Origin: Maribacter sedimenticola
GTDB lineage: Bacteria > Bacteroidota > Bacteroidia > Flavobacteriales > Flavobacteriaceae
Reading direction: 5' to 3'
NCBI RefSeq assembly: GCF_900188415.1
Contig: NZ_FZNV01000001.1
Coordinates: 282,764 to 335,514, forward strand
Length of the DNA: 52,751 nucleotides
This document shows positions 19,361-24,442 of the stretch, piece by piece. Made by a program: the position numbers and the translations under genes. Numbering within the stretch: position 1 is the first letter of the stretch; each line of letters starts with the position of its first letter. Below the pieces are notes generated by a model. It was not told the DNA's origin, did not search any database, and saw nothing but the letters and a program-made list of their open reading frames with translations.

Positions 19361-19432
19361 GGCCTCGTAGTTCAATGGATAGAATAGAAGTTTCCTAAAC
19401 TTTAGATGCAAGTTCGATTCTTGCCGAGGCTA
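19361..19432 (+). tRNA. tRNA-Arg, anticodon CCT
   Basis: The 72-nt cloverleaf folds by hand. The acceptor stem GGCCTCG pairs with CGAGGCT (one G-U), the D stem is GTTC/GAAT, and the anticodon stem GAAGT/ACTTT holds loop TTCCTAA with anticodon CCT. The T arm is GCAAG-TTCGATT-CTTGC and the discriminator is A. CCA is not encoded, and a TTTTT run follows. It should read AGG codons. Confidence 0.95.
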
Positions 19433-19463
19433 CTTTTTAAATAATAATTTGATCACGGACTAA

Positions 19464-20201
19464 TTAACGTCTCTTGCCCCAAATTTCATACATAGGTTCT
19501 CCTTTACTGTTTTTACCGGTATGGTGCCAATCATCATCCTTAAGATTATAATTAAAGTTTAGGGTAGCGCCCACCCTGGTGTCATCCTTGGAGAAAAATT
19601 CTATCTGTTCCGTATATATACCATCTTTTGCACCATATGTTCCACCACCAGTTCCAGAAAAGCGAAAGGATTGTGTGTCATAGGCAATCCATTGAAAAGT
19701 ACCGTTAGTCAATAACTTTAATGTCTTTCTTGTATTGCTTTCCCCGCGCCTTTCCTGACCGTTATCCGGGCCCCTAGTGGCAAATAGCCATGCTCCGTCC
19801 AATTCTTGATTACTATTGGCCGTAGGTTTTAAGGTTAAATTTTCTGTCCAGTATAATTTTAAATTTTTTCCATCAATTGTATAAGGAATGGATAGTTGGG
19901 TCTGTGCATCTTTATTGTAGTCAGAATTAAATTCTAAACGCAGTAAAATCTGTTTTTCAGATCCGGTCATTTCATAATCCACAAAGCCGCCTAAAGTTTT
20001 AATGAACGTAGCAGGTGTTATTTCATATTCGTTATAGACAAAATAATCGTTAAAAATTTTTACTTGATGTACCTTTTTTACGCCATTGGTCTCAACCGTA
20101 TCCGTATAAACACCAGGCATAATTTGGCCATATACGCCTAAACTGATTGATAAAAACAGCATAATGATAAGCCAAAATGGAGTATGTTTATTGTTTTTCA
20201 T
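19464..20201 (-). CDS. Secreted beta-rich protein, unknown function
   Basis: This 245-residue protein has a signal peptide (hydrophobic PFWLIIMLFLSISLGVYG, cleavage probably near residue 25). The rest is predicted beta-rich, with two similar halves. Both open with short 'goes from reference to value' strands such as DYEMTGSEKQILLRLEF and TYGAKDGIYTEQIEFFSKDD, and the second half contains ELDGAWLFATRGPD and RKTLKLLTNGTFQWIAYDT. That LDGxW...LKLLxNGxF pattern recalls lipocalin-like domains found in many Bacteroidota secreted proteins. No enzyme motif is visible. It is a monocistronic minus-strand gene converging on the tRNA. I do not recognise a named family with confidence. Confidence 0.7.
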   Translation of the reverse strand: MKNNKHTPFWLIIMLFLSISLGVYGQIMPGVYTDTVETNGVKKVHQVKIFNDYFVYNEYEITPATFIKTLGGFVDYEMTGSEKQILLRLEFNSDYNKDAQTQLSIPYTIDGKNLKLYWTENLTLKPTANSNQELDGAWLFATRGPDNGQERRGESNTRKTLKLLTNGTFQWIAYDTQSFRFSGTGGGTYGAKDGIYTEQIEFFSKDDTRVGATLNFNYNLKDDDWHHTGKNSKGEPMYEIWGKRR

Positions 20202-20324
20202 TATTTTTCGTAGTATGAGCTTGTTTTTAAACTATTAAAAATAAACTAGTTACATGAGTTTTTAAAATTTAATTCAGGTAAAAAATTTTTTTTTTGCCAC
20301 TGGTCGTAAAAAAAATAAAAAGCC

Positions 20325-20354
20325 TTGTTTTTTCAATTTTTTTGATTTCATTTG
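20325..20354 (+). promoter_or_regulatory. Promoter candidate for the structured RNA
   Basis: TTG at 20325-20327 and TTCATTTG at 20347-20354 are 19 bp apart. They approximate the Bacteroidota TTG-N19-TAnnTTTG promoter with one mismatch in the -7 box. Transcription would start near 20361, at the first helix. An alternative TACTTTG box at 20371-20377 falls inside the structured region. Confidence 0.35.
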
Positions 20355-20360
20355 TCGTGT

Positions 20361-20592
20361 CCTAACACACTACTTTGTGGGTTGGAGATTTCAGGCTTTT
20401 AGCTGAACATTATGTATCGTTATTCTATGTTCGGGTTTGAGGGAAATTGGAAGTGTTTCCCGCAAATGGCTTATAAGATAGGTTGCCGATTAGTAAAGCA
20501 AACTTCCAACAAATACAACGCTATCATGCAAAGCCAGCATGATTACTTCTTCATTCCTACTACACAAAAACAGATTTTAGTCTGATTTTTTT
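20361..20592 (+). ncRNA. Structured RNA candidate with pseudoknots and terminator
   Basis: A 478-bp gap holds one compact set of perfect helices. H1 is CCtAACaCAC/GTGgGTTGG (20361-20385, imperfect). H2 is GAACAT/ATGTTC (20405-20410 with 20427-20432). H3 is GGGAAA/TTTCCC (20441-20446 with 20456-20461). H4 is ATCATGC/GCATGAT (20523-20529 with 20537-20543). The H3 loop TTGGAAGT (20447-20454) is an 8-of-8 complement of ACTTCCAA (20502-20509). The H4 loop AAAGCC (20530-20535) complements GGCTTT (20394-20399). CAGA/TCTG plus a seven-T run (to 20592) ends it. It lies on the speA strand, ending 87 bp before the start codon. It could be a free ncRNA or a leader element. Bases 20202-20360 are AT-rich with poly-A/T tracts and show nothing else. 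Confidence 0.6.
20566..20592 (+). terminator. Terminator of the structured RNA, upstream of speA
   Basis: AAAAACAGA and TCTGATTTTTTT pair through CAGA/TCTG with an A/T continuation after a one-base bulge, then a run of seven T's. It separates the structured RNA from speA, or acts as an attenuator in its leader. Confidence 0.6.
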
Positions 20593-20679
20593 ATTATGAT
20601 GGTTACGTTTTCTTAACTTTCAAAGCCTAGAGTAGTTGTTATATTTAACAAAATTCATTTTTCATTATAATTTCATTTC

Positions 20680-22092
20680 ATGAATACCAAATACATTGAT
20701 CTAATTGATCAAACTTATTATTTTCCCCAAGAAGAGTTTAATCTAGATGGTGAACACCTCCAGTTTCACGGCATACCCTTACATGAGCTAGTGCAAGAAT
20801 ATGGTAGTCCTTTAAAGTTTACATACCTGCCCAAAATTTCAGAAAATATATTACGGGCTAAAAATTGGTTCGCCAATGCCATTGAGAAAAATAATTACAA
20901 GGGAAAATACCATTATTGCTATTGTACCAAAAGTTCGCACTTTCAACATGTCATGCATGAAGCCCTTAAGAATAATATCCATATGGAGACTTCCTCTGCA
21001 TTTGATATCAATATCATTGAAAAATTAAAGGAAGACGGTAAATTAAATGATCAAACATTTGTCATTTGTAACGGATTTAAGCGTGAAAAATATATTGACA
21101 ATATTGCACGGTTAATCAATAACGGGCACCAAAACTGTATTCCTATCATTGATAACTATGAGGAAATAGACTTGTTGACAGATGTTATTGACGATACGTT
21201 TAAAGTGGGTATACGTATTGCATCAGAAGAAGAACCAAAATTTGAGTTCTATACTTCCAGGTTGGGTATAGGGTATAAGAATATAGTTCCATTCTATGAA
21301 AACCAAATAAAGGACAATGATAAGGTAGAGCTAAAAATGCTTCACTTCTTCATTAATACCGGCATTCGTGATAATGCCTATTATTGGAACGAACTTGTTA
21401 AATGTTTAAAGGTGTATGTCCGCTTAAAGAAAATCTGTCCATCCCTGGACAGTTTAAATATTGGAGGAGGTTTTCCTATAAAAAACTCATTGGCCTTTGA
21501 GTATGATTATCAATATATGATCAATGAGATCTTGAACCAGATCAATATAACCTGTTCAGAGGCAGATGTACCGGTACCTCATATTTTTACGGAGTTCGGT
21601 AGTTTTACCGTAGGTGAGAGCGGTGGGGCCATTTATGAGATTTTATATCAAAAACAGCAGAACGATAGGGAAAAATGGAATATGATCGATTCTTCGTTCA
21701 TTACCACGCTACCAGATACTTGGGCCATTAACAAGAGATTTATAATGCTTCCCATAAATCGATGGAACGATGAGTATGAACGCGTTCTATTGGGGGGCCT
21801 TACCTGTGATAGTGATGATTATTATAATAGCGAACAGAATATGAACGCCATCTACCTGCCAAAATATAAAAGGGAAAAACCATTATATATAGGATTTTTC
21901 AATACAGGGGCCTATCAAGAAACCATTGGGGGTTATGGAGGGTTGCAGCACTGCCTTATACCACAGCCCAAACATATTTTAATAGATAAGGATGAAAGCG
22001 GTAAATTTTCCTATAAATTATTTAAGGGACAACAAAAAGCGGAAGACCTTTTGGGAATTTTAGGATATGATGTGGATTCACCAGCCCAATAG
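20680..22092 (+). CDS. speA: Arginine decarboxylase, PLP fold-type III
   Basis: This 470-residue protein is an alanine-racemase-fold PLP decarboxylase of the short Bacteroidota SpeA type; classical E. coli-like SpeA is about 630-660 residues. The PLP lysine is in HYCYCTKSSHF (K84). Further motifs are SLDSLNIGGGFP (glycine loop, about 258-270), PHIFTEFGSFTVGESG (about 300) and the active-site CDSDDYYN near 387-394, supplied across the dimer. The C-terminal beta domain includes FFNTGAYQETIGGYGGLQH. It should convert arginine to agmatine. Agmatinase follows in the same direction after 121 bp, supporting arginine rather than diaminopimelate or carboxynorspermidine as substrate. Start: ATG at 20680, with a structured RNA and terminator upstream. 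Confidence 0.9.
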   Translation: MNTKYIDLIDQTYYFPQEEFNLDGEHLQFHGIPLHELVQEYGSPLKFTYLPKISENILRAKNWFANAIEKNNYKGKYHYCYCTKSSHFQHVMHEALKNNIHMETSSAFDINIIEKLKEDGKLNDQTFVICNGFKREKYIDNIARLINNGHQNCIPIIDNYEEIDLLTDVIDDTFKVGIRIASEEEPKFEFYTSRLGIGYKNIVPFYENQIKDNDKVELKMLHFFINTGIRDNAYYWNELVKCLKVYVRLKKICPSLDSLNIGGGFPIKNSLAFEYDYQYMINEILNQINITCSEADVPVPHIFTEFGSFTVGESGGAIYEILYQKQQNDREKWNMIDSSFITTLPDTWAINKRFIMLPINRWNDEYERVLLGGLTCDSDDYYNSEQNMNAIYLPKYKREKPLYIGFFNTGAYQETIGGYGGLQHCLIPQPKHILIDKDESGKFSYKLFKGQQKAEDLLGILGYDVDSPAQ

Positions 22093-22213: not shown

Positions 22214-23152
22214 ATGAGTACATCTAAGAATTATGCGGGTATTTCCGATGAATTCGCCCAACTGGAAAAATCAAAGATTATATTGATCCCTGTTCCTTAT
22301 GACGGAACCAGTACATGGGGAAAAGGAGCGGATAAAGGCCCTGAAGCTTTTTTGGAAGCTTCTGAGAATATGGAACTGTATGATATTGAAACAGATTCTG
22401 AAGTTTACAAGCAAGGTATTCATTTAACCAGTCCCATTACCGTAAATAGCTCACCAGAAGCCGTGGTAAAAGAGGTGCATGCTATTACAAAGGATTTTAT
22501 CAAGCGTAATAAATTCGTAACCTTATTTGGAGGTGAACATTCTATTTCCATTGGTTCAATAAGGGCTTTCAACGAATGTTTTGACAACCTGACCGTTCTT
22601 CAGATAGATGCCCATGCAGATTTAAGGGAGTCTTATGAAGGTAGCAAATACAATCATGCATGTGCGGTCTATGAGGCCAACCAAACCACGAATTTGGTGC
22701 AGGTTGGTATACGTTCTATGGACAGTATTGAAAAAACATTAATGGATCAAGATAAAACGTTCTTTGCCCATGATATGGTGAACGACGAGTATTGGATGGA
22801 CAAGGTTATAGATACCATGACAGATAATGTTTTTATCACCTTTGATCTTGATGCTTTTGACCCTTCAATTATGCCGTCTACAGGTACTCCAGAACCTGGT
22901 GGATTGTTTTGGTACGAAACCTTAGAGTTTTTAAAACAGGTATTTGAAGACAAGAATGTGGTTGGTTTCGATATTGTTGAACTATGTCCTAATAAGAACG
23001 ATCGATCATCGGACTTTTTGGCGGCCAAATTATATTACAAAATGCTTAGCTATAAATTTGCCGGGCAAGATATAGATCAGGAGTATGACAATACTTATGA
23101 TATCGATTACAAAGCAAATACAAATTCAAAATTTGAAGATGACGAAGACTAA
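22214..23152 (+). CDS. speB: Agmatinase (ureohydrolase)
   Basis: This 312-residue ureohydrolase has all manganese ligands: H109 in FGGEHSIS, D132/H134/D136 in QIDAHADLRESYEGS, and D211/D213 in TFDLDAFDPS. The following STGTPEPGG segment is the agmatinase-type substrate loop. The C-terminal tail after about 285 is acidic and rich in Asp/Asn (ending EDDED). It splits agmatine into putrescine and urea. The ATG of the next gene lies inside its last codons (14-bp overlap), so the deoxyhypusine-synthase-like gene should be translationally coupled. Length and motifs match the arginase/agmatinase family well. Confidence 0.94.
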   Translation: MSTSKNYAGISDEFAQLEKSKIILIPVPYDGTSTWGKGADKGPEAFLEASENMELYDIETDSEVYKQGIHLTSPITVNSSPEAVVKEVHAITKDFIKRNKFVTLFGGEHSISIGSIRAFNECFDNLTVLQIDAHADLRESYEGSKYNHACAVYEANQTTNLVQVGIRSMDSIEKTLMDQDKTFFAHDMVNDEYWMDKVIDTMTDNVFITFDLDAFDPSIMPSTGTPEPGGLFWYETLEFLKQVFEDKNVVGFDIVELCPNKNDRSSDFLAAKLYYKMLSYKFAGQDIDQEYDNTYDIDYKANTNSKFEDDED

Positions 23153-24116
23153 AGGTGCTATCACCAATTTTATAGAAAAATACTATTTACACTTTAATGC
23201 CGCTGCCTTGGTTGATGCTGCAAAAGGATATGAACAACAATTGGACAATGGAGCCAAAATGTTGGTTTCCTTGGCCGGAGCCATGTCTACGGCAGAGCTG
23301 GGTAAAATTTTCGCAGAGGTTATTCGCCAAGACAAAGTGCAGATTATTTCTTGTACAGGTGCCAATCTAGAAGAGGATATCATGAACTTGGTGGCACACT
23401 CACATTATAAGAGAGTGCCCAATTACAGGGATTTAACTCCACAAGATGAGTGGGACCTATTGGAAAAAGGCCTAAATAGGGTAACAGATACTTGTATACC
23501 GGAGGAAGAGGCCTTTAGAAGGCTACAACAGCATATATTTAAGATTTGGAAAGATGCCGATGATAAAGGGGAACGTTACCTGCCCCATGAATTTATGTAC
23601 AAAATGTTACTTTCCGGAGTGTTAGAGGAATATTATGAAATAGACCTAAAGGATTCTTGGATGTATGCCGCAGCTGAGAAGAATCTACCTATTATTTGTC
23701 CAGGTTGGGAAGATAGTACAATGGGTAACATTTTTGCATCCTATGTGCTAAAAGGGGAGTTGAAGGCCAGCACCATGAAATCTGGAATAGAGTACATGAC
23801 CTTTTTGGCAGATTGGTATACGGATAATTCTGAAAATGGTATAGGTTTCTTTCAAATTGGCGGTGGTATAGCAGGAGATTTCCCAATTTGCGTAGTGCCT
23901 ATGTTATATCAGGATATGGAGCGTACTAACACACCTTTTTGGAGCTATTTCTGTCAAATAAGTGATAGCACCACAAGTTACGGTTCATATTCCGGAGCCG
24001 TACCTAACGAAAAGATAACCTGGGGAAAGCTAGATATCAATACCCCAAAATATATTATTGAAAGTGACGCCACAATTGTTGCGCCCTTAATTTTTGCTTA
24101 CCTATTAGACATGTAG
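23139..24116 (+). CDS. Deoxyhypusine-synthase-fold protein, probable homospermidine synthase
   Basis: The ATG at 23139 gives 325 residues; an upstream in-frame start at 23085 lies deep in speB and is unlikely. The protein has the deoxyhypusine synthase fold: MLVSLAGAMSTAELGKIFAEVI and IISCTGANLEEDIMNL for NAD binding (about 45-85), PIICPGWEDSTMGNI and GGGIAGDFPICV (about 190-260), and the catalytic-lysine block KITWGKL (K297) matching the family's VSWGKI. True deoxyhypusine synthase modifies eIF5A, which bacteria lack; some bacterial homologues make homospermidine from putrescine. Following speA and speB, that reaction is the best guess. Spermidine or an aminobutyl transfer to another acceptor remain possible. 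Confidence 0.85.
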   Translation: MTKTKGAITNFIEKYYLHFNAAALVDAAKGYEQQLDNGAKMLVSLAGAMSTAELGKIFAEVIRQDKVQIISCTGANLEEDIMNLVAHSHYKRVPNYRDLTPQDEWDLLEKGLNRVTDTCIPEEEAFRRLQQHIFKIWKDADDKGERYLPHEFMYKMLLSGVLEEYYEIDLKDSWMYAAAEKNLPIICPGWEDSTMGNIFASYVLKGELKASTMKSGIEYMTFLADWYTDNSENGIGFFQIGGGIAGDFPICVVPMLYQDMERTNTPFWSYFCQISDSTTSYGSYSGAVPNEKITWGKLDINTPKYIIESDATIVAPLIFAYLLDM

Positions 24117-24118
24117 TT

Positions 24119-24442
24119 ATGGACAAGAACGCACATTTAAAAAAAGTCATTGTAGACTTTAAAAAATTGACACCAGAGGTACTTAAACTTTTGGTGGAAA
24201 GATATCCGGATGGGTATGATGACCGCAATATCATCTCATTTAGAAATGCTCAAGGAGAACGTATAGAGGCAGTTGAAGTATTGACCGAGGATACTAAGTA
24301 CTTGGTAAAGATCAGCGCCAAATTAGAGTATACCATGGAGAATTATGACGAGGACGATTATGAGGATTTTGATGATGACGATCCAACTGCGGTAGTTGAG
24401 CCGAATCCTGAGGATATGGTCGATGGCGATGATGAAGATTAA
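24119..24442 (+). CDS. Small acidic-tailed protein coupled to the polyamine genes
   Basis: This 107-residue protein starts 2 bp after the previous stop. Residues 1-70 form a small alpha/beta domain beginning MDKNAHLKKVIVDFKKLTPE, with VLKLLVERYPDGYDDRNIISF and a YLVKISAKLEY strand. From about residue 74 on, most positions are Asp or Glu (YDEDDYEDFDDDDP onward), so the tail is disordered and strongly negative. Databases often carry relatives as hypothetical or, I think wrongly, as primase-like. No enzyme motif is present. Position and spacing imply co-expression with speAB and the DHS-like gene. Binding of polyamines or another basic ligand by the tail is speculation. Confidence 0.7.
   Translation: MDKNAHLKKVIVDFKKLTPEVLKLLVERYPDGYDDRNIISFRNAQGERIEAVEVLTEDTKYLVKISAKLEYTMENYDEDDYEDFDDDDPTAVVEPNPEDMVDGDDED

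Follow-up and report, generated by a model that had tools for sequence, protein, structure and literature searches.

The leader of speF in Salmonella and E. coli, which carries a short reading frame (SpeFL, or orf34) in a structured RNA before a decarboxylase gene of the polyamine pathway, controls its gene by means of Rho, its own folding and paused or stalled ribosomes, according to the sections of the papers cited (PMC6386406; PMC7815308). TnaC, the leader peptide of tnaAB, has 24 amino acids, senses tryptophan, ends in proline and, in the section cited, stalls at a UGA codon with release factor 2 bound but blocked and Rho kept off (PMC8429421). For mdtU, the 34-codon gammaproteobacterial leader of mdtJI (spermidine exporter), the section cited links control to a polyamine and to Rho, and places the most conserved residues at the C-terminus and the stop codon 106 nt before the gene (PMC7815308).

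A leader with features of these systems lies before speA in the window, a stretch of 52,751 nucleotides from Maribacter sedimenticola. With a probability of about 60%, judged from comparative sequence analysis, it is a cis-acting speA leader that consists of a 57-codon reading frame with a pseudoknotted RNA in its first half and a C-terminus that would stall the ribosome at UGA upon binding of a metabolite. This metabolite is likely to belong to the arginine/polyamine pathway (arginine, agmatine or a polyamine); the specific choice and the sign of control are guesses. The locus is composed as follows.

19464-20201, minus strand: gene with a DUF4488 match below cut-off
20325..20354, plus strand: promoter-like element, TTG + 19 nt + TTCATTTG, read from the sequence
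20412-20585 (20412..20585), plus strand: leader reading frame, 57 codons and TGA, with its start codon in the P1 loop
20529..20582, plus strand: codons of the C-terminal segment QSQHDYFFIPTTQKQILV, conserved in many genera
20583..20585, plus strand: TGA stop codon, the proposed stalling site; TGA in 138 of 157 rows
20586..20679, plus strand: spacer of 94 nt between leader frame and speA; median 81 nt over 152 rows
20680-22092, plus strand: speA, predicted arginine decarboxylase and likely the controlled gene; Pfam Orn_Arg_deC_N above cut-off

The best NCBIfam matches of speA are arginine decarboxylases, yet below cut-off, and an agmatinase gene (above cut-off) follows. On the 3' side of the agmatinase gene is a deoxyhypusine-synthase-like gene (23085-24116), which we suppose may encode a homospermidine-forming enzyme within the speA operon, and after it a small gene (24119-24442, 107 aa) without a match in Pfam or NCBIfam. 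A tRNA-Arg with anticodon CCT, which reads AGG, is located about 1 kb on the 5' side of the leader (19361-19433), and an AGG codon is found inside the P2 loop in many relatives. The promoter-like element is one that we take to be of the Bacteroidota -33/-7 type; TTTCATTTG occurs within 110 nt on the 5' side of the leader start in 82 of 157 rows, and a looser form in 130 of them.

The locus resembles the speF leader in that a short reading frame in a structured leader precedes a gene for a polyamine-pathway decarboxylase, but the gene here is speA, the frame has 57 codons rather than 34, and the RNA fold lies inside it. No resemblance to the SpeFL peptide was seen, judged without alignment, and the stop codon here is UGA (release factor 2), whereas SpeFL is reported in the section cited to inhibit release factor 1 (PMC8429421). 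With the TnaC leader it shares a leader peptide, a UGA stop and a conserved C-terminus; the block of release factor 2 and the role of Rho are proposed here by analogy, and the section cited mentions no pseudoknotted RNA within the coding sequence of TnaC (PMC8429421). The mdtU leader differs in length, in host group and in the gene that follows. Riboswitch-type leaders likewise precede a biosynthetic gene and have a compact, covarying multi-helix fold in which a loop pairs with the tail as a pseudoknot, but the fold described here overlaps almost completely with a reading frame, has no Rfam match and is aptamer-like by prediction only.

Stalling at UGA is favoured because the conserved C-terminus, the preferred UGA and the distance of about 80 nt to the gene resemble TnaC. 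Transcription would start near 20360 and read on into speA. A ribosome beginning in the P1 loop would melt the fold, which could re-form behind it, as its closing strands are located before the start codon, in untranslated 5' sequence, and in codons 29-32; the re-formed fold may limit further initiation or sense the ligand itself. The C-terminal segment, once in the exit tunnel, would block the action of release factor 2 at UGA, and the stalled ribosome would decide the fate of the spacer of about 80 nt. As with TnaC, it would most probably do so by shielding the transcript from Rho, and the effect would be induction of speA.

The structured RNA core (20397-20508) comprises five helices and one pseudoknot.

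20400-20404 with 20497-20501, plus strand: helix P0, paired in 93.1% of cells; the window has 4 of 5 pairs
20405-20409 (GAACA) with 20420-20424, plus strand: helix P1; the window pairs 3 of 5 positions
20430-20434 with 20486-20490, plus strand: helix P4, paired in 96.3% of cells
20435-20446 with 20456-20467 (20435..20467), plus strand: P2 hairpin, both-side changes at 12 of 12 pairs
20469-20474 with 20478-20483 (20469..20483), plus strand: P3 hairpin, both-side changes at 4 of 6 pairs
20449-20453 (GGAAG, P2 loop) with 20503-20507 (CTTCC), plus strand: pseudoknot core

A structured RNA with three stems had been proposed here in the first-pass annotation, and the stems are present in the sequence where it placed them: the plus strand of a 241-nt stretch folds with z = -2.94 against dinucleotide shuffles (2 of 200 equally good), and the reverse strand with z = -1.15. 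What it had missed is the overlapping 57-codon frame, which falls just under a 60-aa listing limit and emerged when ORFs were listed down to 20 aa. Alignment of relatives, the check it had recommended, bore out the helices and the proposed pairing of loop 20447-20454 with 20502-20509, the 5-bp core of which is paired in 98.1% of cells over 64 loci. Comparison of relatives gave no support for a second proposed pseudoknot (20394-20399 with 20530-20535), which is paired in 83.3% of cells in the 33 genus rows against 83.4% after shuffling, with zero double changes, and in 48.7% against 45.7% in 66 non-redundant loci, a level reached by 10 of 500 shuffles.

In alignment A3, which holds 64 of the 73 non-redundant cores, 91.3% of cells are paired and double changes are found at 21 of 38 pairs. 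P2 is the main carrier of covariation. The number of double-changed cells is 140, against 39.6 (sd 7.6) after shuffling and at most 59 with the partner strand slid out of register; none of 500 shuffles reached it, in a statistic that ignores phylogeny and over rows that take in related genomes. For the pseudoknot taken by itself, 7 cells are double-changed where shuffling gives 1.1; they are G-C to A-U replacements in 7 rows and are confined to a single one of its five pairs. Nine cores were left out of A3 (L054, L098, L099, L004, L019, L028, L084, L090 and L095), and L028, L054 and L098 retain only 54-61% of the pairs. The covariation result stands with the nine restored: over all 73 rows, 89.6% of cells are paired and 173 are double-changed, against 46.1 shuffled (maximum of 300 shuffles, 67). 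The window sequence retains 87% of the family pairs and scores 98.9 bits with the RNA model, R1. For P1 an alternative pairing (alignment columns 9-13 with 33-37) is paired in 93.4% of cells with zero covariation; it may be the pairing adopted in the window, with 20428-20432 as the partner strand.

The 5' leader, which is probably co-transcribed with speA, contains a conserved, covarying, aptamer-like fold. Its junction and pseudoknot, its many near-invariant letters and its strong covariation are features that suit a riboswitch, in which the pseudoknotted RNA would bind a metabolite and control translation of the leader, the peptide being secondary. No known family accounts for it: the whole window matched tRNA alone in Rfam at gathering score, without Flavo-1, a membership that the first-pass annotation had left undecided, or any other family of Rfam 15. 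In a permissive search (E up to 10) of 20150-20750 the best match was SIB_RNA, at E 1.2 and far under its threshold, and the speF leader family matched neither there nor in the window at gathering score. The 6S-Flavo RNA of the same genome is on another contig, not at the speA leader.

The reading frame that overlaps this fold is conserved as a frame. At the codon of its start, ATG, TTG or GTG is present in 38 of 38 aligned rows, these three making up 5.8% of the other codons, and of 100 rows, 90 have an A at -3 and 92 have one at -6. In Bacteroidota, where mRNAs are without Shine-Dalgarno sequences, an A at -3 is a positive signal, according to the section cited (PMC6847099). A DNA search of 60 genomes matched 36, that of the window among them, with one match (G048) limited to about 40 bases; the 30 loci taken from this search have an open frame of one and the same length. 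A peptide search of 299 Flavobacteriaceae genomes matched 144 at a loose E <= 1, many surely by chance. Most loci were picked by peptide or RNA similarity, which makes their frequencies dependent on that selection; least affected is a frame test on 60 R1-matched loci, chosen by hand among those that the peptide search had missed or matched weakly. Four of these lacked an anchor, and in 54 of the other 56 the frame stays open for at least 30 codons past the P2 loop, against 2 and 15 for the other frames.

Against a protein collection the leader peptide gave 4 close matches as a single sequence and 60 as an alignment, none with an informative name; one is called an uncharacterized membrane protein, and one weak match carries a Pfam domain. 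Among named proteins the best match comes from Maribacter litoralis (89% identity), and the core is also found in named Maribacter records. The peptide has no match in Pfam and only weak matches, far below cut-off, in NCBIfam; no family of Rfam, Pfam or NCBIfam fits the leader above cut-off. AlphaFold2, run with 47 sequences, gave no confident fold (pLDDT 58.6, pTM 0.27), by which a folded microprotein was rejected as a candidate; this fits a leader peptide without proving one.

Two regimes of selection divide the frame. Over 435 pairs of genus loci, the fraction of synonymous sites that differ is 0.44 in the leader frame and 0.79 in the first 250 codons of speA; for non-synonymous sites the fractions are 0.17 and 0.05, respectively. 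Synonymous change in the leader frame is thus held back, which implies that the RNA is constrained too. Entropy at codon positions 1 to 3 is 0.89, 0.84 and 0.96 bits in the RNA core (94 sequences), 0.97, 0.88 and 1.50 bits in the last 18 codons (60 sequences of the class with proline at -9), and 0.57, 0.39 and 1.42 bits in codons 151-250 of speA (66 sequences). Where the residue is the same, the codon differs at a rate of 0.24 in the RNA core, 0.50 in the last 18 codons and 0.55 in speA. Together these values indicate selection that acts chiefly on the RNA in the first half of the frame and on the peptide at its end. From its start, frame and codon behaviour, and from the speA gene on its 3' side, this short reading frame is predicted to be translated.

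Conservation of the peptide extends to its last residues and to the type of stop codon. The ending [ILVFMY]x[IVL]-stop is present in 147 of 157 rows (the exceptions being L101, L137, L144, L146, L147, L153, L158, L170, L175 and L182), and where the leader stop is not TGA it is TAA (16) or TAG (3). The speA genes of the same loci (69) end in TAA in 60 cases, TAG in 8 and TGA in 1, and the stop-to-stop frames of at least 200 codons in the window in TAA (18), TAG (7) or TGA (6). In loci found by a nucleotide pattern, 118 ORFs among the matches listed include 108 with TGA and 111 with the ending. The 157 rows are those of 160 in which an ORF was scored, and L032, L033 and L034 among them repeat loci of L001-L030; these three doubled places also enter the 60-row synteny set (57 distinct) and the 33 genus rows. 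The three rows scored without an ORF are L151, L186 and L187, of which L186 and L187 do have one in frame, its start having been missed. In the commonest peptide class the codons of Q-I-x-I-stop can also form a small hairpin, and part of the TGA bias of that class could be at the RNA level. As the sole cause of Q-I-x-I-TGA the hairpin was rejected: the proline class (17 rows) loses it (2 to 4 of 6 pairs) and retains the ending, with TGA in 13 rows. Residues conserved right up to the stop are a property of arrest peptides of the TnaC/SpeFL type, and the leader has it. The C-terminal peptide is a candidate sensor at least as strong as the RNA itself, for which direct sensing of the metabolite is possible.

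That the element is a leader before speA, as the first-pass annotation had supposed, is borne out by synteny. All 60 rows of a first set and all of 40 further loci have the gene a short way 3' of the ORF, and it is within 400 nt of the RNA start in 53 of the 60 RNA-model loci that were missed or weak in the peptide search; in the rest of these it is about 1.5 kb away (L171) or absent from the stretch read (six loci). An exact 21-base pattern from the core has speA within 400 nt in 113 of the 120 matches listed, and four of the seven others are end-clipped. R1 matches 145 of the 299 Flavobacteriaceae genomes, one of them weakly (E 0.07), and is found in 121 of the 236 genera sampled. At E <= 1e-100, speA is found in 201 of the 299 genomes, and in 140 together with R1. 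No convincing R1 match was found outside Flavobacteriaceae in samples of the order (119 genomes) and the class (149 genomes). The matches there, all weak (E 0.029-0.058), come from one genome and from three of one genus (G365; G050, G501, G526), and were rejected as chance, with no speA in the stretches examined.

Several loci bear on the leader-peptide reading. R1 is absent in 61 of the 201 speA-bearing genomes, and 13 of the 20 such speA loci that were read have no peptide recognised as similar, which counts against it; in six the leader ORF closes in a similar way (L318, L320, L326, L329, L332 and L334), which counts for it, and one is doubtful (L327). In L319, L322, L323 and L324, which have speA without R1, the promoter block is kept and the leader is different: it has short hydrophobic reading frames and a segment that resembles GGGATTGA or GGTATTG. 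Of nine copies with a readable ORF and no speA close by, three retain a similar ending (L162 FRI, L171 FPI and L190 VRI), which also counts against the reading; its loss in the other six (L144, L153, L175, L221, L263 and L316) ties the ending to speA mostly, not strictly. In L144, L153 and L162 the element precedes a homolog, by reading, of the protein encoded at 24119-24442, with no speA found between them, and their genomes (G305, G077 and G335, respectively) have no speA match at E <= 1e-100. L151, L175 and L190 are second copies in their genomes and precede one type of secreted-looking protein of about 100 aa (ATYDGYEDGTYYFTD-like, without a Pfam family); at L151 the RNA model matched without an ORF, which is counted against a leader peptide.

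The spacer between leader and speA folds better than chance in a set of 11 genus loci (-17.4 kcal/mol against -6.9, sd 2.7, lowest of 30 being -13.9); the values are -16.2 against -12.1 kcal/mol (sd 3.3) column-shuffled for 17 genus loci and -3.3 against -0.1 kcal/mol (sd 0.4) for 46 loci of other genera. No structure common to these three chosen sets was seen. In the spacer, TTACGTTTTCTTAACTTT at 20603-20620 is conserved in the window's genus, a sister set having a CATGTT/AACATG hairpin there; it is perhaps a second promoter or an operator. The intrinsic terminator that the first-pass annotation saw at the end of the element did not hold up: its T-run is present only in the window among seven loci compared, and the terminator scan flagged 20523-20543 instead. 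This hairpin is largely restricted to the window's genus, where it is paired in 86.1% of cells against 82.6% shuffled (0 of 500 shuffles, 14 double-changed cells); over 66 loci the values are 46.8% and 43.8%, reached by 2 of 500.

An extension of the stalled-ribosome reading, which we hold only tentatively, has two sensors, an RNA aptamer that would gate the start in the hairpin loop and a nascent peptide that would gate the exit at UGA, both setting speA. A riboswitch with a secondary peptide appears somewhat less probable again. The second copy L151, which fits the RNA model without an ORF, adds to the architectural points in its favour. Against this reading stand the amino-acid selection on the C-terminal peptide, the similar ending kept in six R1-negative speA leaders, and the fact that the gene behind the element is speA in most loci rather than varied. 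An expression platform was also not seen in the loci and spacer sets compared: no terminator is kept in seven loci, and no spacer structure is common to the three sets. The leader's own start codon lies in the P1 loop. The frame, co-transcribed with speA, might instead encode a working small protein, for instance a regulator that acts on SpeA like an antizyme, and the fold would then only tune its expression. We consider this improbable: the peptide is conserved and its C-terminal codons behave like those of speA, but the N-terminal half follows RNA pairing, the conserved part runs to the final residues and takes in the type of stop codon, and neither the AlphaFold2 result nor the Pfam and NCBIfam searches point to a folded domain. 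A small RNA that stands alone, ends at a terminator near 20592 and acts in trans is very unlikely, although the first-pass annotation had allowed for a free ncRNA, for despite the promoter-like element on its 5' side and the T-run after a weak stem in the window, the T-run is absent in the six other loci compared, the terminator scan did not flag the site, and the conserved frame and the linkage to speA favour action in cis.

Leader-based regulation of genes in Bacteroidota has, to our knowledge, been little explored. No earlier description of this leader was found in the literature searched, which took in work on RNA motifs; the part consulted of the 104-motif list of 2010 contains none of the words arginine, polyamine and speA. 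The element is well defined, is matched in about half of the genera sampled from one family (121 of 236), precedes a predicted first enzyme of polyamine synthesis and is almost unannotated in the protein collection searched. It is also a clear example of dual selection on one sequence, as an RNA fold and as a peptide. If stalling at UGA is true, it would join SpeFL and MdtU as a leader peptide of the polyamine pathway; if there are two sensors, polyamine supply would be set in this way across a large part of the Flavobacteriaceae.
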